This document shows positions 463-20,954 of a stretch of 64,000 bases of DNA, in pieces (the first letter of the stretch is position 1; each line of letters opens with the position of its first letter). Both the position numbers and the translations under genes were made by a program. Source of the stretch: Sunxiuqinia indica (lineage in GTDB: Bacteria > Bacteroidota > Bacteroidia > Bacteroidales > Prolixibacteraceae); NCBI RefSeq assembly GCF_009847015.1, contig NZ_WVEM01000002.1:241943-305942 (forward strand), read 5' to 3'. The notes under the pieces were generated by a model that saw only the letters and a program-made list of their open reading frames with translations, had not been told where the DNA came from and searched no databases.

Positions 463-467
463 ACTGT

Positions 468-1511: not shown

Positions 1512-1570
1512 AGTTCTTCTTCTTTTTAGCTGTCGTCTGTAGTTCCCAAAAGTAATCAGAAATTGGTATT

Positions 1571-2932: not shown

Positions 2933-3289
2933 GTCTTTGCTTTGCTCTTTTTTTAATGGTCAACAAATACCAAAATAATGATATTGCTTGAGTTTACACA
3001 AGGTATTCGAAAAATTAACAACTTAAAACACAACTCGCTGATTTTTCGCTTCAAAATTTACATCATAATAAAATGATGCTATTTGTACTTGTCAGTGAAA
3101 TTATATCACTTCACCCCTTGTTTTTTACCCCATTTAGTTCTAAAATGACTGATTATTTTGAATGAACCTGCCGAGAAACAGGATAAACATTGATGAAAAA
3201 TAAAAAGTTAGCTTCAAAATTCATTATTTTTGAGGTCTGTATTTGGCTGAAGAAATTTCAATGTTTTATAAATTTAATTGATTAAGATA
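2933..3289. other. Divergent intergenic region between GS homologue and glnN
   Basis: These 357 AT-rich bases separate two divergently transcribed glutamine-synthetase-type genes and must hold both promoters. On the plus strand TATTTTTG at 3225-3232 fits the Bacteroidota -7 element TAnnTTTG. No clear operator palindrome was recognised. Confidence 0.6.
3225..3232 (+). promoter_or_regulatory. Candidate -7 element of glnN
   Basis: TATTTTTG matches the Bacteroidota sigma consensus TAnnTTTG exactly and lies 58 nt upstream of the chosen glnN ATG. No good TTTG -33 element is seen at the usual distance, so this is a weak call. Confidence 0.3.
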
Positions 3290-5479: not shown

Positions 5480-5496
5480 TGTATGATCGGTGATTG

Positions 5497-5536
5497 AAAA
5501 TAGAAGGCCGCTCCAATTGGAGCGGCCTTCTATTTT
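5497..5536. terminator. Perfect bidirectional terminator, glnN / GH97
   Basis: An 18-bp perfect inverted repeat (5497-5514 and 5519-5536, loop AATT) begins with AAAA and ends with TTTT. It can therefore terminate glnN on the plus strand and the convergent GH97 gene on the minus strand. Confidence 0.92.
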
Positions 5537-5577
5537 TTATCGAATGTTTATGATGCGAATCTCTGAAAAAGTCGGAT

Positions 5578-7542: not shown

Positions 7543-7867
7543 AGATTTGAATTTTGTTAGGTTTATTGAAGTAGTAGAATGAAATTTACTTGCTTGCGTG
7601 TTTTATCAGAAACAGACTACATGATCTGAAAAATTAGGAATACCCGCTTCTCTGTTTTGTTTAAGTTATTCTGTAAATATATCAAAAATTGCAGTTGGGA
7701 AATACTTTATCTTTTCGTTTTTCGTTTTTCCATAACGTTTTTAAAATCTTGTATTGGGCTGAAAAAGTGATAGATACATGATAAAAATAACTCTCGGTAG
7801 AAAACAGGTAGATTTTTTAATTTTTTTTCACCCCTCCCGATTTGTTGCAATTTATTGCCGTACTGTA
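7543..7867. other. GH97 upstream region and left end of the mobile element
   Basis: AT-rich non-coding sequence. It should contain the GH97 promoter (minus strand). At 7796-7809 it carries the left copy of the 14-bp repeat also found beyond the integrase, and from 7868 it passes into a 111-bp tandem repeat array. No gene is seen. Confidence 0.5.
7796..7809. repeat. Left attachment-site candidate (14-bp direct repeat)
   Basis: GGTAGAAAACAGGT is identical to 20941-20954. The flanks differ on both sides, so the shared core is exactly 14 bp. The position at the outer edge of the element, opposite the integrase, fits attL/attR. Confidence 0.5.
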
Positions 7868-8338
7868 GCGGATCGCCTCACTGTTATCTGGTGAAATGCT
7901 CGACCAGGCAAAGGCTGCATTGTGTAAATTGATTGTGTCTGATCCTGCGGGATAGCCTGATCCGGGATGCACCTTGCAGCGGATCGCCTCACTGGTATCT
8001 GGTGAAATGCTCGACGAGGCAACGGCTGCATTGTGTAAATTGATTGTGCCTGATCCTGCGGGATAGCCTGATCCGGGATGCGCCTTGCAGCGGATCGCCT
8101 CACTGTTATCTGGTGAAATGCTCGACGAGGCAACGGCTGCATTGTGTAAATTGATTGTGCCTGATCCTGCGGGATAGCCTGATCCGGGATGCGCCTTGCA
8201 GCGGATCGCCTCACTGTTATCTGGTGGAATGCTCAACCATGTAAAGGCTGCATTGTGTAAATTGATTGTGTCTGATCCTGCGGGATAGCCTGATCCGGGA
8301 TGCACCTTGCAGCGGATCGCCTCACTGGTATCTGGTGT
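7868..8338. repeat. 111-bp tandem repeat array, about 4.2 copies
   Basis: The sequence starting GCGGATCGCCTCACT recurs at 7868, 7979, 8090, 8201 and 8312, giving an exact period of 111 bp. The fifth copy breaks off near 8338. Units 1 and 4 share variants (TGTGTC, GCACC) while units 2 and 3 share others (TGTGCC, GCGCC), suggesting amplification or conversion within the array. It is visibly richer in G and C than its flanks. Because 111 is divisible by three, long reading frames exist on the minus strand in at least two frames (37-aa repeats), but neither has a convincing start context, so it is treated as non-coding. Confidence 0.9.
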
Positions 8339-8393
8339 AAAGGAATAGCGAAAACAAAAAGAGACGAATAATTACTTTAGATGATTAAATGTA

Positions 8394-8410
8394 ACTGACT
8401 GTCAGTCAGT
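8394..8410. repeat. Perfect inverted repeat
   Basis: ACTGACTG-T-CAGTCAGT: 8-bp arms around a single base. Such a tight palindrome is better as a protein-binding site or replication/nicking site than as an RNA hairpin. It lies between the tandem array and the terminator at 8422-8442. Confidence 0.5.
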
Positions 8411-8415
8411 GACAA

Positions 8416-8540
8416 ATAAAAAGAGCCGATTAAATCGGCTCTAGTACGGGTTAATAAAACGCTTTCGCTGGTGATCCAGCCTCCTTTGTCCCCATCGCCC
8501 GCGAGGTGTTGACCCAGAATTAGCCCGAAAGCGTTCAACT
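8416..8540 (-). ncRNA. Candidate structured RNA ending in an intrinsic terminator
   Basis: On the minus strand a 10-bp perfect closing stem (8526-8535 with 8458-8467, AACGCTTTCG/CGAAAGCGTT) encloses about 58 nt. The enclosed part has an inner CTGG/CCAG hairpin at 8468-8479 and G/C-rich single-stranded stretches. It is followed 15 nt later by a terminator hairpin (8422-8442) with a U-tract on the minus strand. This looks like a compact RNA of about 120 nt. It lies about 240 nt downstream of the HNH-like gene, so it could also be a structured 3' UTR. It is not a tRNA by fold and matches no RNA family I recognise. Confidence 0.4.
8422..8442 (-). terminator. Intrinsic terminator
   Basis: AGAGCCGAT-TAA-ATCGGCTCT with a T-run (TTTTTATTT) when read on the minus strand. 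It ends either the HNH-like gene's transcript or the candidate structured RNA. Confidence 0.75.
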
Positions 8541-8782
8541 TCAATGTAAAGTTATAAAACTATTTTTTTAAGAAACAACAGATGATACTGCCGTTAAAAA
8601 AGTAGGTCAGAAATTTCGACCTGTTGATTTTTCGCTAATATAGTGCCGGCTCCTGTATGTTTAAATTATCTAAATCTGATCTTAAAAAGCGCGCTTTCTA
8701 TCCGTTTTTGATACTCATTTTCTACCCGATCACCTAACATGTTGAATATCACATGCCTTTGTTAGTTTACGATGAACTAAAA
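8536..8782. other. Non-coding stretch inside the element
   Basis: No gene is seen. A bulged hairpin (AGGTC A GAAA / TTTC GACCT) occupies 8604-8622. Together with the palindrome at 8394 and the structured segment at 8416-8540 this is the longest non-coding part of the element and a reasonable place for a replication origin, although no nick-site motif was recognised. Confidence 0.4.
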
Positions 8783-9508
8783 CTAATTATTTTCGTGTTT
8801 CAATTTGTCCCGGTCTGCTTTAAATTCTTTAATTCGTTGAGTGTTGGTTTTTGGTGTTGGTTTGTAGCCTTGCAAGGTTAAAACCCCGTTTTTCAAATCT
8901 GCCAGTACATCTTCAATCAGGATGTTTAAGAATCCGTTTATTATTTCCTGCCCGTCTCTGGTTCCAATCCCGTAATTTTTGGCGGCCTTTGCCTTGCTGC
9001 ATGTAGTTTCCTCAATGTAGCCTTTGAATAGTGCAATATGTTTGGCTTTTTGGTGTAGTACATAAAACCCCCTTGCTATAATGATCCCCTGCAAATAGAA
9101 CTTTGTTTTAAATATATCCTTTATCTTAAAACGCTTAGGAACTTCAAAATAGCATCTGATTGCGGTCATTAAGTCGGCATTGTTCACATTGTTTGAAACA
9201 TCCGGGGCTAAAATCCGCTTGTATTTTAGGTTGTCGAGGGTTAAATTCTTGTTGTTACCGTCAATGTATTGTATTTGTCTGCGGTTGTACGGTTCGCCCT
9301 TAAACGCCTCTAAAATGAGCTTGGGGACGTTTAGCCGCTTTCCATCTATCAAAACTCTATTCTTAGTGTCATTTTTCAGCGTTTTTCCGGCGGTGAGGCT
9401 GTAAACCGTTCCTTTTTCAGTTATGTACAAGTTCTGGCGATTTTTCACCATTCTAAAGCCTGCTTGCTTTAGTTGGTTGATTGTTGATGTTCTTAGGTTC
9501 CGATCCAT
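8783..9508 (-). CDS. Degenerate HNH/NUMOD-like element protein
   Basis: A 241-aa protein. Residues about 85-120 (QIQYIDGNNKNLTLDNLKY) align with the core of HNH homing-type nucleases, but the first catalytic His is Tyr and the usual NN pair is altered, so nuclease activity is doubtful. It may be a DNA-binding derivative. The C-terminal half (about 130-220) is basic, helical and unrecognised. It starts 27 nt downstream of the tandem-HTH gene and is probably co-transcribed with it. It is the last protein-coding gene at the left end of the element. Confidence 0.6.
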   Translation of the reverse strand: MDRNLRTSTINQLKQAGFRMVKNRQNLYITEKGTVYSLTAGKTLKNDTKNRVLIDGKRLNVPKLILEAFKGEPYNRRQIQYIDGNNKNLTLDNLKYKRILAPDVSNNVNNADLMTAIRCYFEVPKRFKIKDIFKTKFYLQGIIIARGFYVLHQKAKHIALFKGYIEETTCSKAKAAKNYGIGTRDGQEIINGFLNILIEDVLADLKNGVLTLQGYKPTPKTNTQRIKEFKADRDKLKHENN

Positions 9509-9535
9509 GATTATTGTTTTGATTGTTTTTATTCC

Positions 9536-9865
9536 TTATTCAATGCTTTCTCTGGCCTCTTTTAAGTATCTCCAAACAGTTGCGCGGCTTATCTTAAGCA
9601 TGTCGGCAATGTCATTGTAACTTTTTCCCGCCTCGTGTAGCTCCAAAGCTTTTACCTTGTTAGCTTCGCCGTGATTTATTTTCGTCCATTCGTCAGCCTT
9701 TTGCCACTTCTCTAGAGTTCTTACAGGGCACTGCATTAAAATGCTTATTTCGGATAAACTCAGCCCCATTAGGTAATATTTCCGGGCTTTCTCATGATGT
9801 TCAAGAGTGTATTTGTTTCGGGTTGAAGCCTTTTTTTTGGGTTTTGGGTTAACTGCTTTTTTCAT
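9536..9865 (-). CDS. Small protein with two helix-turn-helix motifs
   Basis: 109 aa with a basic N-terminus followed by two HTH units. The first is about residues 25-60 (ARKYYLMGLSLSEISILMQC), resembling the N-terminal HTH of phage small terminases. The second is about 70-105 (ALELHEAGKSYNDIADMLKI), resembling resolvase/HTH_23-type domains. No large terminase gene is present, so a packaging role cannot be inferred; a replication or transcription role is as likely. Its ATG is directly preceded by TACCCTTAAA, one of a family of related boxes in the region just upstream. Confidence 0.7.
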   Translation of the reverse strand: MKKAVNPKPKKKASTRNKYTLEHHEKARKYYLMGLSLSEISILMQCPVRTLEKWQKADEWTKINHGEANKVKALELHEAGKSYNDIADMLKISRATVWRYLKEARESIE

Positions 9866-10244
9866 TTTAAGGGTATGTTTGAAGTTGTAGTGTAAAATAT
9901 TGAACTTGGATTAAATCAAAATGAAACTTTTCAAGGGTATTTTCCCCGGTGTTAAAAGGGTATTTTTTGAAACTATTTTAAACCATGACCCCCGAAGAAG
10001 AAATATAACCTTATAGAGCCTCTGGGTCTTCATTATTAAAGTATTTCTCGTTGGTTTCTTCATGTTCTTGGTTTTTTTTAATCTTCAAATACCCTTAGCT
10101 CCTTGAAAATCCGTGTTTAAGGGTATTTTTTGAAACTCTAGGTTTAAAAAGATCAATTTCAATGCAAAAACCCACTTTCCCCCTGCTCTTGTTTTTCATC
10201 TTCAGTGCTATCTTGTTATTGATAAATTGCAGTTTCAAAAAGTT
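9866..10244. promoter_or_regulatory. Non-coding region with repeated AAGGGTATTTT boxes
   Basis: No gene is seen in 379 bases. The box AAGGGTATTT occurs at 9933-9942 and, within an identical 19-bp repeat AAGGGTATTTTTTGAAACT, at 9956-9974 and 10119-10137. An inverted copy (AAATACCCTT) is at about 10087-10096. A related TACCCTTAAA abuts the start codon of the tandem-HTH gene. The arrangement suggests an operator cluster or iterons bound by an element protein. Confidence 0.5.
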
Positions 10245-10460
10245 TCAACTTTTACCCTTAGTATCATTTTCCAGCTCCCGAAGCTCTCTTTTTGCATTTC
10301 GAGCCAGATAATTGTTGTATGTTGGCAAACTAATATAGAACTGATCCCGGATCAAATTTTCATAAATCCACTTTTGACTTACCCCACGTTGCTTTTCCCG
10401 GATCGTTATTTCTTGAACTTTAACAATTCTTTTCAATAGATATACTGATTTCTGTTTCAT
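10245..10460 (-). CDS. Small element protein, unknown
   Basis: 71 aa, basic and helical: MKQKSVYLLKRIVKVQEIT at the start and SLPTYNNYLARNAKREL near the end. Similar short proteins are familiar from Bacteroidota mobile elements, but no function is known to me. It lies 9 nt after the preceding small gene, on the downstream side of the Rep gene, in the same direction, so co-transcription is likely. Confidence 0.55.
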   Translation of the reverse strand: MKQKSVYLLKRIVKVQEITIREKQRGVSQKWIYENLIRDQFYISLPTYNNYLARNAKRELRELENDTKGKS

Positions 10461-10469
10461 ATTGAGTTA

Positions 10470-10769
10470 TTAAAAATGAACTCCACAGATTGGCCACAAA
10501 TCATAAATTGAACAGATACACTTTTTCCTATTCTTCCAGAAATTCGGGTCTTTCCAGTGTTCATAAACGCATACTACTTTTTGATTTTCTATTTTGATTA
10601 TACGCATAGTGTCCATGTAACTGAATCCATATCCATCGATAAATGTTTTCCCTATTTGTGCCAGTCCACCAATTTCCGGCACCCACTCAGGAAATATAAA
10701 AGACCAGGGGTATTCAATGTTTTCCCTTTTCTTTTTCTCGAAGTCAAATGTTAGTTGAATCTCTGTCAT
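10470..10769 (-). CDS. Small element protein, unknown
   Basis: From the ATG at 10769 (MTEIQLTFDFEKKK) this is 99 aa. The open frame extends to 10844, but the extra N-terminus is arginine-rich and unlike a real start. The protein is rich in aromatic residues and ends in a Cys-containing tail (KCICSIYDLWPICGVHF). No family is recognised. It lies between the Rep gene and the 71-aa gene. Confidence 0.5.
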   Translation of the reverse strand: MTEIQLTFDFEKKKRENIEYPWSFIFPEWVPEIGGLAQIGKTFIDGYGFSYMDTMRIIKIENQKVVCVYEHWKDPNFWKNRKKCICSIYDLWPICGVHF

Positions 10770-10996
10770 TGTTTTATTTTTGTCGTCTCTGTGGCCTCGC
10801 TTCGCTCGGCCTTCCCTCCGGGATGTATAGAACAAGTATCCCAAATGTCAGGGAGCGTTAATAGGTCTCCCAAAAAGCGACTTTAATTTTATCACTGTTT
10901 ATCATTTTATATCAATAAATTACTAATGAACTGATATTCAGATGTTTGTGTTTTGAGAAAAACATGCCCTTTTTGTCTTGCTTAAAGAGCAGATAA

Positions 10997-11959
10997 TCAA
11001 TCCCTTACTATTTTTATAGCTTCGTTTATCTTTTCTCTGAACTCCATTTCCTCCGGGGCTTTCTCTACTTGTATAGTATTTTTAAATATATCCCACTCAT
11101 TCCCAATAAATTCGCGCATGTTTCTAAATCGCTTTTCTGTCAGTTTACCTGCTGCAAAGTCTTCTTTTGCCATTTTCAAGACTTCCTCTTTTCCGTATAA
11201 AATTATTTTTTGACACAGACTTATTTTTCTCTGATGCGTGCCTTTTTTGGCCTCAATTACCGGGTCAAATTGAACCGTTCGCCAATCCTTTAGAAATTGG
11301 TCTGTCAATTTTTTTATCGTCTTGGGGTTCATTAGGTCAGCGACTGTCAACTTCTCAACCCTGCGTTGGGTGGTTTCAATCCTCAATATGTTTGGGGTGG
11401 CCTCCGGGATATCGTCTCGCTGTTTGTCTTTCATTTCGTGCACCTTGTCGTAAACCTTGTATACTTTTTTAATATGCCTGTGAAAAACGGTCGTTTTCAC
11501 CCGCTCGCCTTTGTATCTCGGATTAACGAAAAACCGCCGCTTGTTGTCCAGAACTCCAATTGTCTGCATTTGGTCAATGTAGGTGCGGCAGTCCTTCCCC
11601 ATGTAGAGATTAAGCCCTATTTCGTAATAGTTCACATTGAGGTTTTCCGGCTCTATTCCGGTCTTTTCTTTCAATAGTTCGAGGCTCTGCCTTGCATTGG
11701 TGATACTGAACAGGTCGAAATTTGCTTGTTTTCCCGTTCGGATATAGTTGAAAAATTTATGCAGGCTGCATTCTAGTTTCAGCCTCTTAGCATTGCTTGT
11801 TTCAATTCGTAAATAAAAGCCTTGAATAAACTTTTGATTCTGATTGTCAAAAAAGAATACTCCGGCCTTACTGTTGGTTTGCAGGTTGTTACCATCTGCA
11901 ATGCTAAAAATATCGTTATCTGTAAGCCCGGTTTTACTCATTTTTATTAGATCGATCAT
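10997..11959 (-). CDS. Phage gene II/X-like replication initiation protein
   Basis: From the ATG at 11959 (MIDLIKMSKTG; an in-frame TTG lies at 11965) this is 320 aa. It resembles the gpII/gpX rolling-circle replication proteins of filamentous phages and small plasmids: a central YEIGLNLYMGKDCRTYIDQ segment, the VYDKVHEMK motif around residue 170 and LRIETTQRR around residue 193. Such proteins nick the double-stranded origin and bind covalently through Tyr. This implies that the element can replicate after excision. Assignment is from motif layout alone and is fairly but not fully secure. Confidence 0.7.
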   Translation of the reverse strand: MIDLIKMSKTGLTDNDIFSIADGNNLQTNSKAGVFFFDNQNQKFIQGFYLRIETSNAKRLKLECSLHKFFNYIRTGKQANFDLFSITNARQSLELLKEKTGIEPENLNVNYYEIGLNLYMGKDCRTYIDQMQTIGVLDNKRRFFVNPRYKGERVKTTVFHRHIKKVYKVYDKVHEMKDKQRDDIPEATPNILRIETTQRRVEKLTVADLMNPKTIKKLTDQFLKDWRTVQFDPVIEAKKGTHQRKISLCQKIILYGKEEVLKMAKEDFAAGKLTEKRFRNMREFIGNEWDIFKNTIQVEKAPEEMEFREKINEAIKIVRD

Positions 11960-11973
11960 TCCCAAAATTCATG

Positions 11974-12195
11974 TTAGTAATTCGTATCTCCTAAATATTT
12001 GGCGTTGCCGAAACAAAGCTTTACGATTTTGTATTTGTCCCGATCTTTCGGGTTAATTCTTCTTAGAACTCTGTTTCTTAAATAGCGGTCTTGTAGGTTG
12101 TTGTGTTCCTTGAATACAATCCGGTTTACTATTGCCTTTTCATGGGTAACCGTGTTTTTTATTTCCGCATCGCCAAAGAATATTTTTTGTGTCAT
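11974..12195 (-). CDS. Small element protein upstream of Rep, unknown
   Basis: 73 aa, charged and basic (VLRRINPKDRDKYKIVKL), with no recognised domain. It ends 14 nt before the Rep start and so is likely the first gene of the Rep transcript. Its 5' part overlaps, in another frame, a 42-codon frame that begins in a leader duplicated elsewhere in the element. Confidence 0.5.
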   Translation of the reverse strand: MTQKIFFGDAEIKNTVTHEKAIVNRIVFKEHNNLQDRYLRNRVLRRINPKDRDKYKIVKLCFGNAKYLGDTNY

Positions 12196-12268
12196 ATTGT
12201 TCTACTTTTCGGTTAAATGGAAAACTTTCGGTACTTTTACACCCGAAGATTTTTAGAACTTGTACCAT
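12140..12268 (-). CDS. Possible 42-aa leader peptide overlapping the 73-aa gene
   Basis: Starts ATGGTACAAGT within a 32-bp leader that also precedes the 122-aa gene (13027-13058, 30 of 32 bases the same). The frame runs 42 codons (MVQVLKIFGCKSTESFPF...) and stops inside the 73-aa gene. It may be a translated leader coupling translation, or just a relic of duplicating the leader. Low confidence as a gene. Confidence 0.25.
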   Translation of the reverse strand: MVQVLKIFGCKSTESFPFNRKVEQYDTKNILWRCGNKKHGYP

Positions 12269-12289
12269 GAGTTCTTGAATTTTTAAGGT
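12258..12289 (-). repeat. Duplicated gene leader, copy 1
   Basis: The 32 bases differ at only two positions from 13027-13058. On the minus strand they read ACCTTAAAAATT, six bases, then CTCATGGTACAAGT, placing the ATG about 20 nt after the ACCTT box. Related ACCTT boxes precede the integrase and the 255-aa gene. Confidence 0.7.
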
Positions 12290-12292
12290 CAA

Positions 12293-12320
12293 AGGAAAGC
12301 CCCAGCAATGGGGCTTTCCT
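12293..12320. terminator. Hairpin after the HTH_17-like gene
   Basis: AGGAAAGCCCC-AGCAAT-GGGGCTTTCCT has 11-bp perfect arms and lies 4 nt past the stop of the minus-strand excisionase-like gene. The T-tract on the minus strand is short, so efficiency is uncertain. Confidence 0.7.
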
Positions 12321-12324
12321 GATT

Positions 12325-12615
12325 TTATACCACTCCATTTTTAAGAAGCTCGTCCAGATGCGAACGTTTCACATAGCGATTAGCCCCTTTTTTTTGGCTT
12401 ATTTTAATCACTTCAATAAGCCCATCGTTTACATACCTGTTAAAAGTCGCAAACCCAATTTTTAGACGTTCGCAGACTTCCTTCGGGGTTAATAACTCTT
12501 TTTGTTCCTGATCTGACAAAACGTTGACTTTCTCTCGAATGTCCTTTAACATCGCCTTGTGTTCGTTCCACTCGTCAAGAGAAACTGTAATCACTGCTAT
12601 TTGTTGGGATTCCAT
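12325..12615 (-). CDS. Excisionase-like helix-turn-helix protein
   Basis: 96 aa. Residues about 42-90 form a MerR/excisionase-type winged helix (HTH_17): LLTPKEVCERLKIGFATFNR, then YVNDGLIEVIKI and a wing with KRSHLDELL. Proteins like this are the usual directionality factor or plasmid-type regulator of Bacteroidota integrative elements. The N-terminal 40 residues are a charged helix. It is followed by a terminator, so it is probably the end of its transcript. Confidence 0.8.
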   Translation of the reverse strand: MESQQIAVITVSLDEWNEHKAMLKDIREKVNVLSDQEQKELLTPKEVCERLKIGFATFNRYVNDGLIEVIKISQKKGANRYVKRSHLDELLKNGVV

Positions 12616-12668
12616 ACTTTCAGGTGTTTAAACGTTATTTAAATGATGTTTAAATTCAGGGGATGGGG

Positions 12669-13037
12669 TCAATATTTAATCAATCTCTCAATCAATTCAA
12701 CCGCTAAGAATTTTGTATCTCTTTCGAGTCTGCCACTGTTTTTTAGGAGGTCAAAAAGTGCCTCTCTTATTTCCACTAAATTCTCATGAGATTTGATTCC
12801 AGAACCATGCGGGTCAACTTCAAGAAATAGTGTTTTTTCCTTGCTCTCTGGGTCGTCTTTTATCAGTTTGAGCAAATTACCAGCCCAGTACATTATGCTT
12901 TTTGCACCGTGCCCCAAATTTTCGTAGTCATAGTTTTGGATTAAATCAACAATAGCCGCCTCGATTTGTGGCAACCAAGAGTTATCAAGACCTAAATCAA
13001 TTCTTTCAACTTTCATTTCGTTTTTTACTTGTACCAT
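12669..13037 (-). CDS. Element protein, unknown
   Basis: 122 aa from the ATG at 13037 (MVQVKNEMKVERI); an internal ATG at 13016 is an alternative start. Acidic and helical, with no recognised domain. The first codons come from the duplicated 32-bp leader, which supports either a genuine start there or a leader that was copied with its start codon. It lies between the terminator of the tape-measure gene and the excisionase-like gene (53-nt gap). Confidence 0.5.
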   Translation of the reverse strand: MVQVKNEMKVERIDLGLDNSWLPQIEAAIVDLIQNYDYENLGHGAKSIMYWAGNLLKLIKDDPESKEKTLFLEVDPHGSGIKSHENLVEIREALFDLLKNSGRLERDTKFLAVELIERLIKY

Positions 13038-13058
13038 GAGTTCTAAAATTTTTAAGGT
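13027..13058 (-). repeat. Duplicated gene leader, copy 2
   Basis: Near-identical to 12258-12289 (two differences in 32). On the minus strand ACCTTAAAAATTTT leads into the ATG of the 122-aa gene. Confidence 0.7.
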
Positions 13059-13096
13059 TTATGAATTATTTTGCTTGTTGTACCTCTGCCAAACAA

Positions 13097-13116
13097 GGGG
13101 CTTAAGGTCAAGCCCC
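13097..13116. terminator. Hairpin after the tape-measure gene
   Basis: GGGGCTT-AAGGTC-AAGCCCC, inside a longer weak outer pairing (CCTCT/AGAGG). It lies 22 nt past the stop of the minus-strand tape-measure gene. No long U-tract follows, so it may be only partly efficient. Confidence 0.55.
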
Positions 13117-13137
13117 TGCCCGGATAGAGGCGGTTTT

Positions 13138-16100
13138 TTATAGTCCGTCTTTTAGTGTTTTATGCATTCCTATCATTTCGTCTTTTATTTCCACTAAGTG
13201 TTTATTGTACTTGGTATTATCAGCAATCTGCTTGAGGTAGCTAATGCGCTGCACGGTGTCCTCCTGTCCGGCGGCTATTTGCGCCACAATGGCTCGTACA
13301 TCAAACCGCAAGCCCGTTAAGTGCCCGGCAATCAGTCCGGCGGTTTCTTCGGTAATACCTTTTATTGCCCCGGTTAATCCCTTGCTATTTGTAGCACTTC
13401 CAAAATCGAAACCATATTCTGAAAAAGAATCAATCATTGCCTGAAAGGCGGGCTGCGCAGAGTCGTAAATCTCTTGAACTGACTCTCTGAAATTAGCAGC
13501 CTCTTCAGGTGTTAATCCAATATTTATTTCTTCAGACGAACCTCCTCTTCCTGTTCTTTCGCCGTCAGTACTATCTTTTATGAGTTGTTTAACAGCGTCT
13601 TGTATTGGCAAGGTGAGCAGGTCGGCAGTGAGCTGCTTCACTATTACATTTTTAATCACCTCATCAACCTTTTCGCCCCAGGCAACAGCCGCATCTTCGC
13701 CTGACAGAAAAACGTCGGCCAGCGAGTCAGCCAAGTTCTGCACGGTTGTTCCGGTTACCTCTTGTGTTATGGTATCTATTTGAGCCATTAACGCATTGTA
13801 GCTCGATAAAACAGCTTCAATCGCTTCACGCTGGTCGTTTGATACATTCCCGCCAATCAGTCGTTCGCTTAAGGCTTGTATTTCATCGGTAAGCGAGGTT
13901 GCCTCGTTCACCAAATCGCCGTAAAAACTAACATAGCTGGGAGAACGTCGGCGACTGTATGACGCTCCACCAAGTTCATCGTTTAGCCGTTTGGCTTCAT
14001 CGGCTAAATCGGACATGCGGCGTTGGATGGAAAACAACGATTGAGACACCGCACTGCTACCCATATTAGAAAGCGACTGGGTGGCAATGTCAATAGAGGA
14101 AAGCATGTCGTCGATTTGTTCCTGTATTGCCTTGAAATGATCGCTTAACTTTTCAGGAGCTTGTACAAATAGGCTTAAGGCTGATTCTATTATCTTAGCA
14201 GCTCCCTGAACAATGTTGCCGCTTGCAATGTCTGCGACACCATTGGATAGCTTAAAAATATCATCCAAAAGCTTTACCTGATCTTTTGACAACCCGAGCT
14301 GCTCGGCGTATTTATGAGTTAGATTTTCAACGGCATCTGATATCTCGATGACTGTAGTTAATGTATCTCCCTTTAATTTATTGTTTATATCAGAAATACT
14401 TTTGTCTGCCACACTTATTGCCGCGCTTAGTCTGCTTATTTCATCTTTATTTTCTTTCCCTCCGAGTGCCGACAGTACTTTTATGCGAGCTGCCGCGTAT
14501 TTTTTTAATAATTCAAGCTTCTGTATAAACAATCGCTGCTCATTGCGATAACCTCTCTGCCCGATTTCTAGCTTTTTGGTTTCTATCTCCTCTTCGAGGT
14601 CTATTTTTTTAATCGCTTCATTTGCATTGGCCTGATCAATTTCCTTACCTCTTTGTTTTTCCAGAAAAGGCACGGATTCGACTTTACCAAGTTCTTTTGC
14701 TTTTTTGATAAGTTCATCGTACTTGTTATTAATTGATCGAACATCGCGCTCGTTTTGACTTATAAATGCCTCAGTTGCTTGCTCCCATATTTTCTCTACC
14801 TCCCTAGCTGTATCTCTACTTATTTTTTCTATCTCTGTATTCTTTTCTTTCTCTGCATTCAGGCGAAGCTTGTCAAACTGCTCCTGCACGTCCTGCGGCA
14901 ACTCGGTTATATAATCCTTGTCAGTGAGCTTTAAACCTTTTGACTCGTTCAGCTTGCCGAGGTAGTCCTGTTCTTGTCTCTGAATCTTGGTTAGTTCTGC
15001 CTGATAGGCAACCTCAGCTTCTCGTTTCCTCTTTTCAGCCCCTTCTTTCATGTAAGCTACCTTCGAAGCTTCTACATTTTGCGTCAATTCAAGATCTTCC
15101 TTGGCTAGTGCTTTCATGGCTTTTAAGCGTTGCTCCTCTGCCTTGATTTGCTTATCGGCTTCCTTTTGCTTCACCCCGGTAAGCGTAGCCAGCCTATCGG
15201 TCAGAGCTTTAATGAGCTTTTCCTGATCTTCAATTTCCGTGGATGTGGCCTGCGAGCTGTCGGCACGTAGCTCAACCAACTTGGCCTGCGCTTCTGCCAA
15301 TGCGGTTGTAGTTTCGGCTATTTGTTTTTTAACAGTAGGTAGTCCGAGCTGTGTGTCAATCGCCTGTATCTGATCTTTAATGCGCTGGTCGGCATTAATG
15401 CCAAGCCCGGCATCCAGCAAGTCCACCAAATCGGCTTTAACCTGCAAGGCTTGTTCGCGGCTGTAGTCGCTGGCCTGTTGAAATAGATTTTTATAAGGGC
15501 TTAGAATTTCGTCTGCATCGGCGGCATTCAACGCTATTAATTTTGTGCGACCTTTCTGCACTGTCCCCTGTAGATCTTTTATGCTAACATCAAGCTTTTT
15601 TACTTCGTTTCGTTTCTTTTTGATTTCTTCGGGGCTCAATCCGATAACTTCATTTTCAATATAGCCCGGAGAACCTCCCTTCGTAGTTACAAAGGTTCTT
15701 TTTGTTGTTTGACCTGCATTGGCTTCGCCGAGTAGTGTTTTTTGTTGCTCTTGTAATATTCTTATTTTGCGCTCATTATCTTCTATTTCGGCGGTCGTTG
15801 TTATAATTAGATTGTCGCGGAACTCTTTATTTAAATCACGAAGCTTTTCGGCGACCAGGTCGACCGCTTTACCATACTCGTCGGTTTTCCCTATCGCATC
15901 CGGGAAAATAGTTCCAAGCTCCTGAATGGTGCTGTTTAATGTTTTTTGTTCATCGGCTGTTCGGTTAGCCTTGCCGCTCAGTGTTTCATATTGCTTGATC
16001 AGCTGATCTACTTCCTCCTGCTTGCCAATCTGGTCAATACTGTTGTTCAGTTCCGAAACATAATCCTCTACCTTTTTGGTTTCTTTTCCAAACACGGTAA

Positions 16101-17193
16101 GCAGGGTAACAAGCCCGGCGATAGCGGTTGCGGCTAAAATATAAGGGTTTGCAAGCATTGAGGCCTTTAGTGCAGCTGAGGATTTAGCGGCAAGCCACTG
16201 CGCTGCTGTGAGCTGCCTGGTTACCTGTACCATTTTAATACCATTGCTCACCATTTGGGTTACCGTTGACGTGGCTCTGAAATTTTCGGCCACTGCAACC
16301 GCAATAGTTGCGGCTTTGTAAGCGCCGTAAGTGGTTACCAGCACCTTTAGAACATCAAGGATTTCCTCGTAATGATTCACAAGAGTTGTAGCCCCGCTGA
16401 TGGCTGCCGCAATGGTTTCTTCGTTGTTTTTGCCAATGCCATTCAATGCGCGGGTAACCGCATCTTGGTAGTTTGCCGCAAGGGTTGGTATCTTTTCACT
16501 AATTGCATCAACAAGCCCCTCGAATTTTCCTCCTTCTCCTGTCATCGATTTAAACGCCGTTTCAACGTCTTTAAACCCAACCTTCCCCGCTTCAACCATT
16601 CCCTGTATTTCAGACTTGGCAACTCCGAACTGGCTTGCTAATTCTTCTATAATAGGAATACCACGGCTTGTAAACTGAAGAATGTCTCGGGTGTAGGCGC
16701 GACCTTGTGTATTTAGAGTTCCATACAAATAAATAAGATCGCCAATGGGCACGGAAAGCCCGGCAGACACATCGCCTAGTGTTTTAAAGGTGTTGATTAC
16801 GTCGCCAGCTGCAAACCCATAAGCTAAAAGCTGCTTTGTTCCCTTCGCTACATCTTGCAATTCAAAAGGAGTTGTAGCGGCATAGTTAACAACTTGCTGC
16901 ATAAGCCTGTCGGCTGCAGATTTGTCCCGCAAAATCGTTTGAAGTGAAACCTCCAATTGTTGGAACTCGCCCCGAACCTGTGCAATGGAGGTAATAAAGT
17001 CTTTTAAAAAACGGGCTGAAAAGTACACACCAATGCCCGCAGCCATTTGTTTATAGATGCCCTGAATCTTATCGGCTTCCTGCTGGGCGGTAGTGGTAAC
17101 ACCCTGAATACCTTTTTTCATCTTTCCGGCCTCTTCCTGAAAATTCATGTTTTTCAGGACAAATTCTATATCTACTGGTATTGTGTTTGACAT
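13138..17193 (-). CDS. Tail tape-measure protein, orphan
   Basis: 1351 aa. Residues about 75-270 match the conserved N-terminal domain of phage tape-measure proteins (QLLAYGFAAGDVINTFKTLG, then LYGTLNTQGRAYTRDILQFT and GIPIIEELASQFGV). Hydrophobic stretches follow at about 290-375, then a long coiled coil (about 380-960) and an Ala/Ser-rich C-terminal part. In siphophages the protein sets tail length and is threaded through the tail tube. Here no tail-tube, chaperone, baseplate or capsid gene is adjacent. Terminators lie on both sides (17229-17253 and 13097-13116), so it forms its own transcript. The frame is intact over 4 kb, which argues for maintained function. Confidence 0.9.
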   Translation of the reverse strand: MSNTIPVDIEFVLKNMNFQEEAGKMKKGIQGVTTTAQQEADKIQGIYKQMAAGIGVYFSARFLKDFITSIAQVRGEFQQLEVSLQTILRDKSAADRLMQQVVNYAATTPFELQDVAKGTKQLLAYGFAAGDVINTFKTLGDVSAGLSVPIGDLIYLYGTLNTQGRAYTRDILQFTSRGIPIIEELASQFGVAKSEIQGMVEAGKVGFKDVETAFKSMTGEGGKFEGLVDAISEKIPTLAANYQDAVTRALNGIGKNNEETIAAAISGATTLVNHYEEILDVLKVLVTTYGAYKAATIAVAVAENFRATSTVTQMVSNGIKMVQVTRQLTAAQWLAAKSSAALKASMLANPYILAATAIAGLVTLLTVFGKETKKVEDYVSELNNSIDQIGKQEEVDQLIKQYETLSGKANRTADEQKTLNSTIQELGTIFPDAIGKTDEYGKAVDLVAEKLRDLNKEFRDNLIITTTAEIEDNERKIRILQEQQKTLLGEANAGQTTKRTFVTTKGGSPGYIENEVIGLSPEEIKKKRNEVKKLDVSIKDLQGTVQKGRTKLIALNAADADEILSPYKNLFQQASDYSREQALQVKADLVDLLDAGLGINADQRIKDQIQAIDTQLGLPTVKKQIAETTTALAEAQAKLVELRADSSQATSTEIEDQEKLIKALTDRLATLTGVKQKEADKQIKAEEQRLKAMKALAKEDLELTQNVEASKVAYMKEGAEKRKREAEVAYQAELTKIQRQEQDYLGKLNESKGLKLTDKDYITELPQDVQEQFDKLRLNAEKEKNTEIEKISRDTAREVEKIWEQATEAFISQNERDVRSINNKYDELIKKAKELGKVESVPFLEKQRGKEIDQANANEAIKKIDLEEEIETKKLEIGQRGYRNEQRLFIQKLELLKKYAAARIKVLSALGGKENKDEISRLSAAISVADKSISDINNKLKGDTLTTVIEISDAVENLTHKYAEQLGLSKDQVKLLDDIFKLSNGVADIASGNIVQGAAKIIESALSLFVQAPEKLSDHFKAIQEQIDDMLSSIDIATQSLSNMGSSAVSQSLFSIQRRMSDLADEAKRLNDELGGASYSRRRSPSYVSFYGDLVNEATSLTDEIQALSERLIGGNVSNDQREAIEAVLSSYNALMAQIDTITQEVTGTTVQNLADSLADVFLSGEDAAVAWGEKVDEVIKNVIVKQLTADLLTLPIQDAVKQLIKDSTDGERTGRGGSSEEINIGLTPEEAANFRESVQEIYDSAQPAFQAMIDSFSEYGFDFGSATNSKGLTGAIKGITEETAGLIAGHLTGLRFDVRAIVAQIAAGQEDTVQRISYLKQIADNTKYNKHLVEIKDEMIGMHKTLKDGL

Positions 17194-17228
17194 TTTGGTA
17201 ATGTTTATGAATGAAGATTTTTAAAAAT

Positions 17229-17253
17229 AACGGGGGAGGCAGTCAACCCCGTT
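17229..17253. terminator. Hairpin between the 210-aa gene and the tape-measure gene
   Basis: AACGGGG (17229-17235) pairs with CCCCGTT (17247-17253), with A/T runs on both outer sides, so it can act in either direction. It separates the XRE-led operon from the tape-measure gene. Confidence 0.7.
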
Positions 17254-17318
17254 TTTGTGATAAACCCCATAATCAACGGATGTTATTTCCTCTGCCTATT
17301 ACTTCTCAATTCAAAACC

Positions 17319-17951
17319 TTAAAAACGTTTTATGAAATTGGGTTCTATTTCCCATCTTCTATTTCTGAATATTAGACCGCGTACATCGCCGTAAGCCCCA
17401 GCCGATGAACATACCAATTGATAGTTGTTTAGTCGTTCGCAAAGATCAATCATGGTTTTTGCCACTTCAAGCTGCTTTTCTCCTTCTGCGTAAACTGTAT
17501 GCCAGTCAGCAATGATCTTTGGTGCTTCTTTTGATAGTTCAACTTTATTGGTTTCCTTATTCAGGTCAATCAATTCCATAAAACGGATCGCATGTCTTTC
17601 TATCATTGTAAATGCCTCAGCAATGCGTTCTAATTCCTCTGGATTAACCTCGATCATGTCTTTTAGCTTGTCTTTATTCAAGTTGAATCCTAAGACTTTC
17701 GCACTATCCTTGCTGTTTGCTACGAGTAAGTTTTTCAGAAACTCCTCTGCTTTTTGATACTCGTCAAATTCGTCCCGGTAATGGCTGCCAAGTACTTTTC
17801 TTGTAATATCTTCAACATGTTGGTAGGTTGGGTTGTGGCCTCCTTCATCAAGAATCGAGTATAGTTTTTGTAAACTTTCTCTTGTTTGCTCCGCGTGCTC
17901 CAAATCTGCTTGGATAGCGTTTTTGTCTTCGTTAATCTTTAGTTTTTCCAT
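17319..17951 (-). CDS. Element protein, unknown (210 aa)
   Basis: A soluble, charged, mostly helical protein (DKNAIQADLEHAEQTRESLQ near the start, VNPEELERIAEAFTMIERH in the middle) with no signal peptide or membrane segment. No family is recognised. It is the last gene of the XRE-led unit (26-nt gap to the 84-aa gene) and is followed by the terminator at 17229-17253. Its position just before the tape-measure gene is where phages keep tail chaperones, but it shows no resemblance to them. Confidence 0.6.
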   Translation of the reverse strand: MEKLKINEDKNAIQADLEHAEQTRESLQKLYSILDEGGHNPTYQHVEDITRKVLGSHYRDEFDEYQKAEEFLKNLLVANSKDSAKVLGFNLNKDKLKDMIEVNPEELERIAEAFTMIERHAIRFMELIDLNKETNKVELSKEAPKIIADWHTVYAEGEKQLEVAKTMIDLCERLNNYQLVCSSAGAYGDVRGLIFRNRRWEIEPNFIKRF

Positions 17952-17977
17952 GATTTAATTGATTGATAAGTAGTTTA

Positions 17978-18232
17978 TTAAGATTTGATCATTTCGTCCA
18001 CATCCTTTAGCAATGAATCTCTTGCTTCGCCAAAATTCCAAGAATTTTTCTCTAAGTATGATTTTAGCTTTTCCTCTATTTGCTCCGGGCTTAAACTTGG
18101 CATTTGAATTGATGCCATTTTCAAGAATAGCTCTTTGTAAAGGCCTTTTATTTTTTCTTTCCGTTCATGGGTTAACCTGTCTTTATCTGAAAGATTAAAA
18201 GGTCGGGGTATTGAATCCCAGTATAATTTCAT
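17978..18232 (-). CDS. Element protein, unknown (84 aa)
   Basis: A small, basic-acidic helical protein (WDSIPRPFNLSDKDRLTHER at the start). No domain is recognised. It is spaced 13 nt from the 69-aa gene and 26 nt from the 210-aa gene in the same direction, suggesting an operon. Confidence 0.5.
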   Translation of the reverse strand: MKLYWDSIPRPFNLSDKDRLTHERKEKIKGLYKELFLKMASIQMPSLSPEQIEEKLKSYLEKNSWNFGEARDSLLKDVDEMIKS

Positions 18233-18245
18233 AGTAGGTTCTTGT

Positions 18246-18455
18246 TTAGTTCATGTAAAAAACATCCCATATCCGGGCAGTACCAAATCTTAAATAGGGC
18301 TTATTTTCTTGCAGGATTAGCCAAAGCTTATATTTTGCCATATCAACATTTGAAGCCAAGACAATACCAATTCGAATTGAAAAGCCGTATTGATACATGA
18401 TTGCGTATTTGTTACACAGTCCGGTACTAGAGTAGTGGGCTTGATCCTTCGCCAT
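18246..18455 (-). CDS. Element protein, unknown (69 aa)
   Basis: Overlaps the 3' end of the XRE-type gene by 29 bases in another frame. It has one weakly hydrophobic stretch (YGFSIRIGIVLASNVDMAKY). No homologue is recalled. The overlap and short distance to the next gene favour a real translationally coupled gene, but a chance frame cannot be excluded. Confidence 0.35.
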   Translation of the reverse strand: MAKDQAHYSSTGLCNKYAIMYQYGFSIRIGIVLASNVDMAKYKLWLILQENKPYLRFGTARIWDVFYMN

Positions 18456-18738
18456 ATTTTTCTTGTTGATGGTTAAGCCGGGCGGTTAATTCGTCCTGAG
18501 TTTCTTCGTTCAATACCTGATTCAATTCGTCAAAGGCTTCGCGCTCTTTGTGCTTGAACTCTTTTAATACTTCGGCAGTGGCCTTTATTATCTCCGGGAG
18601 TTTGGGGCTTCGTGTGTCGCCCATTAATGCACGGCTTACCGTTGGTGCAAGCACGCCTGCCCGCTCTGCAATCTGAACAATTGCCCCGTGTGGTAATTGT
18701 TTGCGAATAGCTTTTAAGTCTCGAACATTCTCTAGCAT
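18427..18738 (-). CDS. XRE/LacI-type helix-turn-helix repressor
   Basis: 103 aa. Residues about 17-50 form an HTH (AIVQIAERAGVLAPTVSRAL) of the phage-repressor type, followed by a charged helical tail. It probably controls its own operon and perhaps element excision or replication. Just upstream lie three GCACGGT half-sites (18791-18797, inverted 18815-18821, and 18836-18842), which are candidate operators. Confidence 0.75.
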   Translation of the reverse strand: MLENVRDLKAIRKQLPHGAIVQIAERAGVLAPTVSRALMGDTRSPKLPEIIKATAEVLKEFKHKEREAFDELNQVLNEETQDELTARLNHQQEKYGEGSSPLL

Positions 18739-18789
18739 ATCAAATAAATTAAAAGTTATCTTATTTCAATCGCGCATATTTTAATTCTA

Positions 18790-18821
18790 TGCACGGTCAA
18801 ATATAATAAAAAAACCGTGCA
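18790..18821. promoter_or_regulatory. Candidate operator, inverted TGCACGGT half-sites
   Basis: TGCACGGT at 18790-18797 faces ACCGTGCA at 18814-18821, centred about 67 bases upstream of the repressor ATG. A third copy lies within the adjacent terminator. The spacing of the two arms (24 bases centre to centre, a little over two helix turns) is compatible with two dimers on one DNA face. Confidence 0.4.
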
Positions 18822-18847
18822 GTAGATATATTTATGCACGGTTTTTT
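18809..18847. terminator. Terminator of the 255-aa gene
   Basis: AAAAAACCGTGCA (18809-18821) pairs with TGCACGGTTTTTT (18835-18847) around a 13-nt loop. It lies 23 nt past the stop of the minus-strand 255-aa gene. A-runs and T-runs at both ends make it bidirectional. The right arm also carries the half-site seen in the candidate operator. Confidence 0.8.
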
Positions 18848-18870
18848 AAAAATAATTTATTTTGATATTT

Positions 18871-19638
18871 TTAATTCTCTAAAATTGAGCTAATTAAATT
18901 ATTCATATAAGCTTTCAAATCCCCTATATTTCCACTCAGATAGCGATCATATTCCATTCCAAAACCACCATTTTTAATTAAATTGTCGATCAAAAAATCT
19001 GTAGTATCATACTCAACTAACTCATATTCTATTTTTACTACGTCTCCAATCTTCAAGTCTGATTTATTGTTTCTTTTTATTTCAAATATCTCAATTTTGC
19101 ACTTTTCACCTAATTTCTTTTTAAGTGATTCTTTTACAACTGTATCGCCTAGCTGACCAAAAAACAATTCATTAGTTATTGAATGTTCAGATACGTCTAC
19201 AAACTTTTTCAATTCAATTAAAACTTTTTCGAACTCATCTAAATTTGACTGTTCATAAATGCTTGGGTCACCAAGATATTTACTTTCATACTTCCATTTG
19301 ATAAATTTTTGAAATTTTTCAATGATCGGATAAGACGCCAAACTTAAAAAGTCATTAAACGTTTTGATATCAAACTGTAGGCTCGCTCTTTCTATTGATT
19401 TTACAATATTTTCAACAAACCTAATTTCATTATCTATCCTCTTTTTAATGCTGCTGTTTGCATCAGAAATTACCTTCAAATATTCTTTTTCTGTCAATTC
19501 CTCGTTTAAAAGACTTTTAATCTTAGTATTCCTGTTTTGGTATCTAAACAGATAATAAATCCTGTAATACTTTTCATTGTCAATGATGTAAGGTTTAAGG
19601 TTTTTATTTAAATAGTGTTTTACTGTAATTTTGCCCAT
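18871..19638 (-). CDS. Integrase-arm-like element protein, unknown function
   Basis: 255 aa from the ATG at 19638 (MGKITVKHYLNKNLKPYI; an in-frame TTG lies at 19644). The first 60 residues resemble the N-terminal arm-DNA-binding region of Bacteroidota tyrosine recombinases (YYRIYYLFRYQNRNTKIKS), but no recombinase catalytic domain follows. The rest is charged and helical. The gene is noticeably richer in A and T than its neighbours. It sits directly downstream of the integrase (65-nt gap) and shares the ACCTTAAAA leader, so a role in recombination control is plausible but unproven. Confidence 0.55.
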   Translation of the reverse strand: MGKITVKHYLNKNLKPYIIDNEKYYRIYYLFRYQNRNTKIKSLLNEELTEKEYLKVISDANSSIKKRIDNEIRFVENIVKSIERASLQFDIKTFNDFLSLASYPIIEKFQKFIKWKYESKYLGDPSIYEQSNLDEFEKVLIELKKFVDVSEHSITNELFFGQLGDTVVKESLKKKLGEKCKIEIFEIKRNNKSDLKIGDVVKIEYELVEYDTTDFLIDNLIKNGGFGMEYDRYLSGNIGDLKAYMNNLISSILEN

Positions 19639-19703
19639 GGTCAAACTTTTAAGGTCAGAAAATCAGTTCTTTTATTTTCCCGGATCGTTCAAATATACGT
19701 CGA

Positions 19704-20867
19704 TTAGCGGGAATATGAAACGTTTTTCAAATCGTTGACAAGGGTCATGTCCATTACTTTGCCGTAAATCTGGGTAGTTTCAATCCGGCGGTGGCCTAGC
19801 AACTTTTGTACAGTGGTAATGTTCACCCCCTTGTAAAGTAAAAATGTGGCGGTTGTGTGCCTGGCAGTGTGAAAAGTGATTTTCTTTTTAATCCCGGCGT
19901 GTTCAATTACCTTTTTCAAGTCTGCGTTCAACAAGTGGTTGTGCTGAAATGGAAATACAGTAATTCCAGAACCAACATAGTTGTAAAAAATATCCAGCGC
20001 TCGCCCCTCAAAAAGTAGATGAATGGGAATTCGAACAGGTTCAGCGGTCTTCTTTGTGCTTAGTACTAACCATTCTTTCCCGTCTTCCAAAACTAGGCTT
20101 TGTGGTTTCAGCTCTGAAATGTCGCTAAACCGTAATCCGGTGTAAAGTGAAAACAGGTATTTGTCCAGAGCCAGTTGATAAGCTGCCATTTCCTTTGGTA
20201 GTCGCAACTTTTCCAAAATCTCAATTTCCTCCGGGGTCAAATAGTGCCGCTCCGTTTTTACTTTTTTGAGTTTGAATGTTCTAAAAGGATTCTTGTTCAG
20301 GTCTATCAAATCTCTGTTGATTGCCTGATTGACGTACTTTTTAACAATCCCTAAATTTTTGGCGACTGTGTTTGTGTGCAGTTTCTTTTCCCGTAGAAAT
20401 TGTTCAAAGCCAACCAAGTACTTGTAATCTATTTCCTCAATCAGTGCGCCCGCCCTGAACTTTTTAAGATAGTTGAACAGGGTTTCGTGATCCCTTTGTG
20501 TTGTCGGCTTTAGATTGCTGTTTTTAAGTTCCTGTCGGCAGAAGTCCAGAAAAACACTAGTCAAAGAACCTTTAACAAATTCCCCCAAATACGCGAGGGG
20601 AACTTGTTTCCCCTTTTGCCGTTGTTGCATTTCTGCATCTTCCAGCCTCGAAACAAAATCCCGGATTTCTTTATTCAGCCTAATCTGGTTGGGGTGGTCT
20701 TTAATAGTCCGGTGTCGTTTGTCCCATTGCTCCGGGCTAATGTAAATTTTTGTCGAGAAGTACTTTTTTTTACCATTCAAATAAGCCTCGACTTGGAGTA
20801 AAGCTTTCCCATTGGGTAAAAGCTTTTTCTTACGGTTAAAAACCGTTCTGTACAAAACTTTTTCCAT
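19704..20867 (-). CDS. int: Tyrosine recombinase / integrase
   Basis: 387 aa, the standard length for Bacteroidota element integrases. N-terminal arm domain about 1-90, core-binding SAM-like domain about 100-195, catalytic domain about 205-385. The catalytic set is complete: Arg246 (TGLRFSD), His333 and Arg336 (HTARHTTA), His359 (LLGHRR) and nucleophile Tyr368 (TTQIYGKV). It should catalyse integration and excision between the 14-bp repeats at 7796 and 20941. Its start is preceded by the ACCTT leader box. The gene lies next to one end of the element, as expected. Confidence 0.95.
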   Translation of the reverse strand: MEKVLYRTVFNRKKKLLPNGKALLQVEAYLNGKKKYFSTKIYISPEQWDKRHRTIKDHPNQIRLNKEIRDFVSRLEDAEMQQRQKGKQVPLAYLGEFVKGSLTSVFLDFCRQELKNSNLKPTTQRDHETLFNYLKKFRAGALIEEIDYKYLVGFEQFLREKKLHTNTVAKNLGIVKKYVNQAINRDLIDLNKNPFRTFKLKKVKTERHYLTPEEIEILEKLRLPKEMAAYQLALDKYLFSLYTGLRFSDISELKPQSLVLEDGKEWLVLSTKKTAEPVRIPIHLLFEGRALDIFYNYVGSGITVFPFQHNHLLNADLKKVIEHAGIKKKITFHTARHTTATFLLYKGVNITTVQKLLGHRRIETTQIYGKVMDMTLVNDLKNVSYSR

Positions 20868-20940
20868 GATTCTAAAATTTAAAAGGTCGCTACAAAGCTA
20901 GAACAAAATTGATTATGAAAAAAGCACCGGGTAGAAACTG

Positions 20941-20954
20941 GGTAGAAAACAGGT
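20941..20954. repeat. Right attachment-site candidate (14-bp direct repeat)
   Basis: GGTAGAAAACAGGT, identical to 7796-7809, 74 bases upstream of the integrase ATG. A partial copy GGGTAGAAAC lies just before it (20929-20938), which could be an integrase arm site. Confidence 0.5.

Follow-up and report, generated by a model that had tools for sequence, protein, structure and literature searches.

How a full-length tape-measure gene came to lie in a small integrated element in which no other virion gene is recognised is the question raised by a 64,000-nucleotide stretch of Sunxiuqinia indica DNA (contig NZ_WVEM01000002.1, positions 241,943 to 305,942; further referred to as the window). The element is chromosomal, about 13 kb long, occupies positions 7796-20954 of the window and is flanked by 14-bp repeats. 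Results of our analysis indicate that it is probably a phage satellite, predicted to spread in the particles of a helper siphophage with its own tape measure protein (TMP) in their tails. Below, G000 denotes the genome of the window (which lies on its contig C22), G004 a sister genome, and L-numbers the fetched loci or contigs.

The element has its own integration and replication genes, as indicated by the Pfam domains of the integrase and by the match of the predicted Rep fold to the initiator RepDE, and it lacks most virion genes, TMP being the sole virion gene product recognised when all 14 proteins of the element were searched with Pfam and 10 of the 14 with PHROGs. Both properties are expected of a satellite. 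A third one, characteristic of satellites of the Vibrio PLE type, is a full-length TMP of its own that is under selection. This protein matches TMP_3 (PF20155) at 74.8 bits, with a cut-off of 41 bits, and the excisionase-like protein matches HTH_17 at 34.2 bits. An earlier note on this DNA had described a 13-kb element with a tyrosine integrase, an excisionase-like helix-turn-helix (HTH) protein and a full-length 1351-aa TMP, with which Pfam and PHROGs agree. It had also stated that capsid, portal, tail-tube, lysis and transfer genes are absent, and no such family was matched with Pfam (14 proteins), PHROGs (10) or PADLOC (10 of the 14), with the qualification that a 109-aa protein matches terminases through its HTH.

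The 14 open reading frames (ORFs) accepted as genes extend from the integrase gene (19704-20867) to the HNH-like gene (8783-9508), all on the minus strand; one repeat copy lies just outside the integrase gene and the other beyond the HNH-like gene. The features of the element are as follows (dN/dS, ratio of nonsynonymous to synonymous substitution between the window and G004):

20941..20954, no strand: right end repeat GGTAGAAAACAGGT, attR-like; identical copy in G004 (L005:3298)
19704..20867, minus: tyrosine integrase, 387 aa; PF00589 74 bits, PF17293 80 bits, PF13102 62 bits
18871..19644, minus: 257-aa protein; divergent between copies, beside the regulator again in relatives
18427..18738, minus: 103-aa HTH regulator, repressor-like; weak LacI-type HTH match; homologues in L226, L230, L247
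17978..18232, minus: 84-aa protein (g84); conserved in G004
17319..17951, minus: 210-aa protein (g210) of the p192 family; profile E 1.3e-6, hhalign 92.8%; dN/dS 0.093
13138..17193, minus: TMP, 1351 aa; PF20155, phrog_9959 510 bits; dN/dS 0.115
12669..13037, minus: 122-aa protein (g122); present in G004; dN/dS about 1
12325..12615, minus: excisionase-like HTH protein, 96 aa; HTH_17, phrog_66 excisionase and transcriptional regulator
12293..12320, no strand: hairpin with a 12-bp stem, between the excisionase-like and Rep genes
11974..12195, minus: 73-aa protein; upstream neighbour of Rep also in L177 and L230
10997..11965, minus: Rep, 322 aa, predicted rolling-circle-type initiator with a Rep_trans-like fold; 125 homologues, Foldseek match RepDE
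10470..10844, minus: 124-aa ORF (an ORF call); no counterpart found in the G004 copy
10245..10460, minus: 71-aa protein; homologues in L226 and L230
9536..9865, minus: 109-aa double-HTH protein (HTH109); homologues in L230, L231, L232, L247
8783..9508, minus: 241-aa HNH-like protein; phrog_959; homologues in L230 and L247
7796..7809, no strand: left end repeat GGTAGAAAACAGGT, attL-like, 14 bp; one-mismatch counterpart at the left end in G004

The repeat proposed in the earlier note was thus found at 7796 and 20941, and in G004 its right copy is identical and its left copy has one mismatch. The regulator, which the note had called an XRE-type repressor, is a repressor-like HTH protein whose only match is the weak one to the LacI type. 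The 241-aa end protein resembles HNH proteins of phrog_959, but what we take to be the usual HNH histidines are missing from the aligned stretch. At the left end, inside the element, there is a tandem array of 111-bp units (window 7753-8418, reported as five overlapping two-unit copies); in G004, the stretch from the HNH-like gene to the left end holds two ORFs (102 and 176 aa) instead.

The G004 copy of the element is diverged and occupies the same chromosomal site. Synonymous distances between the two copies, which like the dN/dS values are Nei-Gojobori estimates and rough near saturation, are 1.32 for TMP, 1.29 for the HNH-like protein, 0.88 for the regulator, 0.61 for HTH109, 0.57 for Rep, 0.54 for g84, 0.41 and 0.67 for the integrase pieces, and 0.38 and 0.31 for the 73-aa and 71-aa proteins, while those of the excisionase-like protein (0.26), g210 (0.25) and g122 (0.11) do not exceed that of the flanking GH97 gene (0.27). 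Such unequal distances along the element suggest that the copies arrived separately at one site, or exchanged genes with other elements, rather than that they are related by simple descent. TMP is intact in both copies, and its dN/dS of 0.115 indicates purifying selection, as a result of which the element does not resemble a decaying prophage. Residues 1101-1300 of TMP are 97-98% identical (dN/dS 0.012 and 0.018), whereas the middle of the protein (701-1000) aligns poorly and the G004 TMP is 149 aa shorter. The dN/dS of g210 is similarly low (0.093). The g122 gene, also beside that of TMP, stands out from its neighbours: its dN/dS is about 1.03, and at 0.109 its synonymous distance is the smallest in the element.

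TMP genes deprived of their usual neighbours were found to be recurrent. Profiles were built from phage contig L228 for the proteins encoded upstream of TMP at the tube and chaperone positions, as well as for distal-tail, capsid and portal proteins. PHROGs names the capsid and portal seeds, but the tube-position seed matches a family with no assigned function and the chaperone-position seed no family at all, so the tube and chaperone labels are derived from gene order. Among the 197 TMP loci, 89 were dropped and 108 were usable, being non-redundant and having a TMP that is complete and no shorter than 900 aa, with at least 5 kb upstream and at least 3 kb downstream. A tube- or chaperone-position match was present in 92 of these, and neither in the remaining 16, further called orphans. 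The orphan loci show no reduction of TMP length (medians of the two groups 1369 and 1396 aa, P 0.45). At least 11 of the 16 gave a match for an integrase-like ORF, and PHROGs assigned replication initiators, helicases or loaders in L017, L121, L083, and L286. In a scan of chosen candidate proteins, a small terminase, i.e., a possible means of redirecting packaging, was recognised by PHROGs in six orphan-TMP elements: L017, L121 (the same element as L030), L046, L091, L286, and L097. PHROGs also indicated a head-morphogenesis-type protein in L017, and a phrog_5377 protein in L046, L091, and L094, the same family occurring at the neck position in L228. Two of the orphan loci, L041 and L072, have distal-tail matches and may be phages, while in L024 a distal-tail protein occurs alongside a p192-family one. 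L017 and L097 also encode a product of about 340 aa that is similar to the longer (490 aa) minor head/head-morphogenesis protein of L228, and the orphan-TMP locus L112 encodes a 538-aa protein (11821-13437) that is terminase-like by eye and is placed by PHROGs only in a family of unknown function.

The p192 family, first met through a protein of L017, proved to accompany such TMPs. Among about 12,400 ORFs of all loci then gathered, its members occurred exclusively in orphan-TMP loci or in relatives of the window element that share its backbone. The assignment of g210 to this family by a profile (E 1.3e-6) agrees with its hhalign probability of 92.8% and score of 47.8, compared with top scores of 18.5 for 30 shuffles, 22.9 for 80 random ORFs, and 22.6 for other window proteins. 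The family is represented in 10 of the 16 orphan loci and in 0 of the 92 others (Fisher 2e-10, a post hoc value because the family was discovered in orphan loci). In a separate sample of 393 genomes of the order, drawn evenly, 24 besides G000 had a TMP match at E 1e-30. The 25 loci fetched comprised 16 with tail-position genes, six of a type that has a hub and whose TMP frames span 594-726 aa, and three orphans; p192 was present in all three orphans, one of which (L294) is the same locus as L096, partly the source of the p192 profile, and in none of the other 22. A search of 395 genomes of the phylum with p192 only returned G000 and four more, of which two were weak and were dropped. The kept ones were L247, which turned out to carry the backbone of the window element, and L248, which encodes an integrase, a replication initiator and p192, and in which no tail gene was recognised. 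Our results identify p192 as a marker of orphan-TMP elements, which is new here.

The earlier note had advised a search for the same gene set; six other members with a related backbone were found: G004, L226, L247, L230, L231, and L232. L230 (G447) encodes homologues of eight proteins of the window element (integrase, regulator, excisionase-like, 73-aa, Rep, 71-aa, HTH109, HNH-like). With the profiles built in this analysis, a tail gene was not recognised there. In L226 (IMG/VR 2524023241), homologues of the 257-aa, regulator, excisionase-like, Rep, and 71-aa proteins are accompanied by a baseplate hub (phrog_4930, 155 bits) encoded between the Rep and 71-aa genes; an integrase was not seen next to this backbone, the contig end being close by. 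L247 (G763) has homologues of the integrase, 257-aa, regulator, excisionase-like, Rep, HTH109, and HNH-like proteins, with no match to the 73-aa and 71-aa ones. Between its regulator and excisionase-like genes, which is the position of TMP in the window, it encodes a DUF6046 protein (PF19512, 83.6 bits; phrog_5233 'baseplate hub'). L231 and L232, both ending at contig ends, have homologues of integrase, Rep, and HTH109, and no recognised tail gene. Altogether, four of the seven backbone members carry one tail gene, and all four encode a p192-family protein, which is found in none of the three others (L230, L231, and L232). The variation of single tail genes on one backbone is also new here. 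In the IMG/VR contig of L226 (23.9 kb) two elements adjoin each other: that of L225, with integrase-like and replication-type genes, an orphan TMP of 1446 aa and p192, and that of L226, with its own p192 and hub. At the end of the L247 element, a 329-aa protein with no Pfam match is encoded (14289-15278), the position of which suggests cargo, perhaps a defence protein.

The Rep protein has 125 homologues at E 0.001 and matches no Pfam or PHROG family, while one of 30 members of its family weakly matches Rep_trans. The best Foldseek match of its AlphaFold2 model (mean pLDDT 90) is the rolling-circle initiator RepDE (E 3.9e-8, TM 0.47-0.53). Judging by this model, Rep is a rolling-circle-type initiator with a Rep_trans-like fold, and the description 'gpII-like' given in the earlier note found no support. 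Neither did the premise of that note that such a Rep belongs to filamentous and a tape measure to tailed phages. The excisionase-like, 73-aa and Rep genes of L177 are followed by terminase, portal, and protease-type genes, and the excisionase-like and Rep genes of L186 by terminase, portal, and capsid-type genes, the structural names being given by inspection; a portal profile seeded from both loci also recovers a G000 protein identified as portal by PF04860. Since the Rep family occurs in tailed prophages, the coexistence of Rep and a tape measure does not make the element a filamentous/tailed phage chimera. The hairpin (12293..12320) between the excisionase-like and Rep genes is conserved in G004, has equivalents at the same position in L226, L230, and L247, and may be a terminator or an origin. 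In L233 (G259), a related Rep and an integrase are encoded beside small membrane proteins and a possible lytic enzyme, a gene set that may resemble that of lipid-containing Flavobacterium phages.

The occurrence of Rep, excisionase-like, and 73-aa homologues in tailed prophages, the relatedness of TMP to phage TMPs, and the split of the G004 integrase would all suit a deleted prophage in which TMP is the leftover of a lost tail operon. We regard this as very improbable. TMP is intact and constrained in two diverged copies, with no relaxation of selection, no tail remnant was recognised beside it, and it is encoded between the regulator and the excisionase-like gene, whereas the structural genes of L177 and L186 come after Rep. 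Moreover, relatives carry different single tail genes, full-length orphan TMP loci are many, and none of the six other backbone members has, between the same genes, the complete set of tail and capsid genes that according to the earlier note would reveal a deletion.

Rep_trans-type folds include relaxases of some integrative elements, and although no relaxase, coupling or mating-pair family was matched by Pfam in the proteins of the element, a protein of this kind could act as a relaxase. The element might be an integrative mobilizable or plasmid-like one, with Rep as its replicator or relaxase and TMP as passenger DNA; an undescribed integrative plasmid-like family had been the alternative proposed in the earlier note. 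The related backbones with no recognised tail gene (L230, L231, and L232) give some support to this part of the note. However, the Rep, excisionase-like, and 73-aa genes occur together in the tailed prophage L177, and a relative of Rep was found in only 1 of 72,556 plasmid records. A passenger would be expected neither to stay so constrained in diverged copies nor to be repeatedly a tail part accompanied by p192, and we find this explanation quite unlikely.

The window TMP itself is related to phage TMPs. Residues 1-300 are identical to those of phage contig L102 at 204 of 300 positions and to those of L228 at 123 of 297, while for residues 1051-1350 the relation is reversed (67 of 263 for L102 and 214 of 300 for L228). 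As judged from these alignments, the protein is a mosaic between phage TMPs; in Bacteroides phages, 33% of it is alignable at 38% identity. When the N-terminal regions of 148 TMPs were placed in a tree, the window and G004 formed a pair, nearest to phage contigs L102 and L103, and the TMPs labelled by hand as satellite (17 rows) were scattered among phage TMPs. The tree requires 14 changes of label, at least 13 of which are forced by starred branches (mean of 16.3 for shuffled labels), which indicates that TMPs have apparently moved many times between phages and orphan-TMP elements. Prophage-like regions with a portal (PF04860) are present in G000 on contig C3 (about 1-20,000) and contig C7 (about 69,000-110,000).

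A satellite that supplies its own tape measure, the first reading of the earlier note, thus gains indirect support from the recurrence of orphan TMPs, p192, six small terminases, purifying selection on TMP, and the PLE precedent. We infer excision, replication, packaging, and tail incorporation, which could proceed as follows. A helper phage would relieve the repressor, the integrase and the excisionase-like protein would excise the element, and Rep would drive its rolling-circle copying, so that both excision and replication would be self-supplied. The satellite DNA would enter helper heads, in relatives probably by means of their own small terminase. The satellite TMP would displace that of the helper, and the tube, tip, and terminator proteins of the helper would assemble on it to form a chimeric tail, with g210 either promoting this process or putting the helper's version at a disadvantage. 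The conserved C-terminus of TMP and its exchangeable middle fit a constant contact with helper tail-tip proteins. With 10-15 nm of tail length expected per 95 aa of TMP (PMC12987554), the tails specified by the window and G004 copies are predicted to differ by about 16-24 nm.

An orphan TMP could also be an interference weapon, which jams the tail assembly of infecting phages and protects the cell, and has no role in transfer. TMP and tail assembly are indeed targeted by known proteins: Tab recognises TMP (PMC10884400), Tai, a protein found in satellites, prevents the assembly of tails (PMC11364771), and Rta of PLE11 acts on TMP (PMC12987554). None of these is itself a TMP, however, and a TMP of full length that is most strongly constrained at its C-terminus suits a functional tail component better than a poison. 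As orphan elements have integrase, replication and, in six cases, small-terminase genes, we consider this explanation unlikely.

Several observations weigh against the satellite interpretation. A co-resident siphophage with a related TMP, for which the earlier note had suggested looking, was not found, as neither of the two portal-bearing G000 regions matched the TMP profile. In the window, the likeness of the 109-aa protein to a small terminase appears to be generic to HTH proteins only: its matches to PF06056 (terminase gpP-like, 35.8 bits) and to several small- and large-terminase PHROGs are confined to short HTH stretches amid many other HTH families, and the excisionase-like protein, used as a control, scores nearly as high against small terminases. 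The g84, g210, and g122 proteins show no similarity to the chaperone-position family, which is named from gene order. The tube- and chaperone-position profiles are home-built and may miss distant genes, p192 was undetected in 6 of the 16 orphan loci, the exact backbone is rare, and the G004 integrase is split in two ORFs.

It is possible, although we hold this with less than even confidence, that satellites of a broad and as yet unnamed class ('tail-part pirates') live in Bacteroidota. Each would have one or a few exchangeable tail parts (a tape measure, a baseplate hub, or a DUF6046 protein), repeatedly acquired from helper phages, and a p192-family protein by which assembling tails are made to accept the part of the satellite instead of that of the helper. 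If so, the tail takeover shown in Vibrio PLEs (PMC12987554) would also be widespread in Bacteroidota, including gut genera; orphan-TMP loci in this survey include those of Bacteroides luti and Parabacteroides. The p192 family would serve as a sequence marker for finding such elements, and the related backbones with different single tail genes as a natural experiment on which tail part benefits a satellite. The advantage may lie in how long the tail is, in DNA ejection, or in evasion of defences directed at TMP. In open-licence PMC papers and a few preprints, we did not find tape-measure satellites reported for Bacteroidota, nor satellites described for these gut genera; the string 'bacteroid' is absent from the text of PMC12987554, and new putative satellites that have TMPs and a baseplate component are mentioned in PMC10448857.

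Among known systems, filamentous phages (Inoviridae) have a Rep of rolling-circle type and in some cases an integrated state. They were rejected as the identity of the element, in which no filamentous coat or assembly family was matched by Pfam or PHROGs, and the Rep model of which matches RepDE. Temperate Bacteroidota siphophages share with the element the excisionase-like-Rep module (L177 and L186) and the TMP family (L228 and Bacteroides phages), but have their own terminase, portal, and head and tail operons. The cf-PICIs, named capsid-forming, encode head genes, none of which was recognised in the element; like it, they are satellites with a tmp gene, putative tmp genes being indicated both in them and in other PLE-like elements (PMC12987554, Extended Data Fig. 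10 legend). The Vibrio PLE satellites differ from the element in phylum and in Rep and integrase context. They encode a tail assembly chaperone (TAC) besides TMP, whereas g84, g210, and g122 show no link to the chaperone-position family, and p192 is not described for them in the excerpts of PMC12987554. Like the element, they are integrated and have their own TMP without a full tail operon. PLE11 additionally encodes a hub, as does L226, the relative of the window element. The PLE TMP is proven in chimeric tails: PLE11 virions contain the TMP and hub of the satellite while those of the helper are absent, and deletion of the PLE tmp gene cuts transduction by 96 to 99.9% (PMC12987554, 2026).

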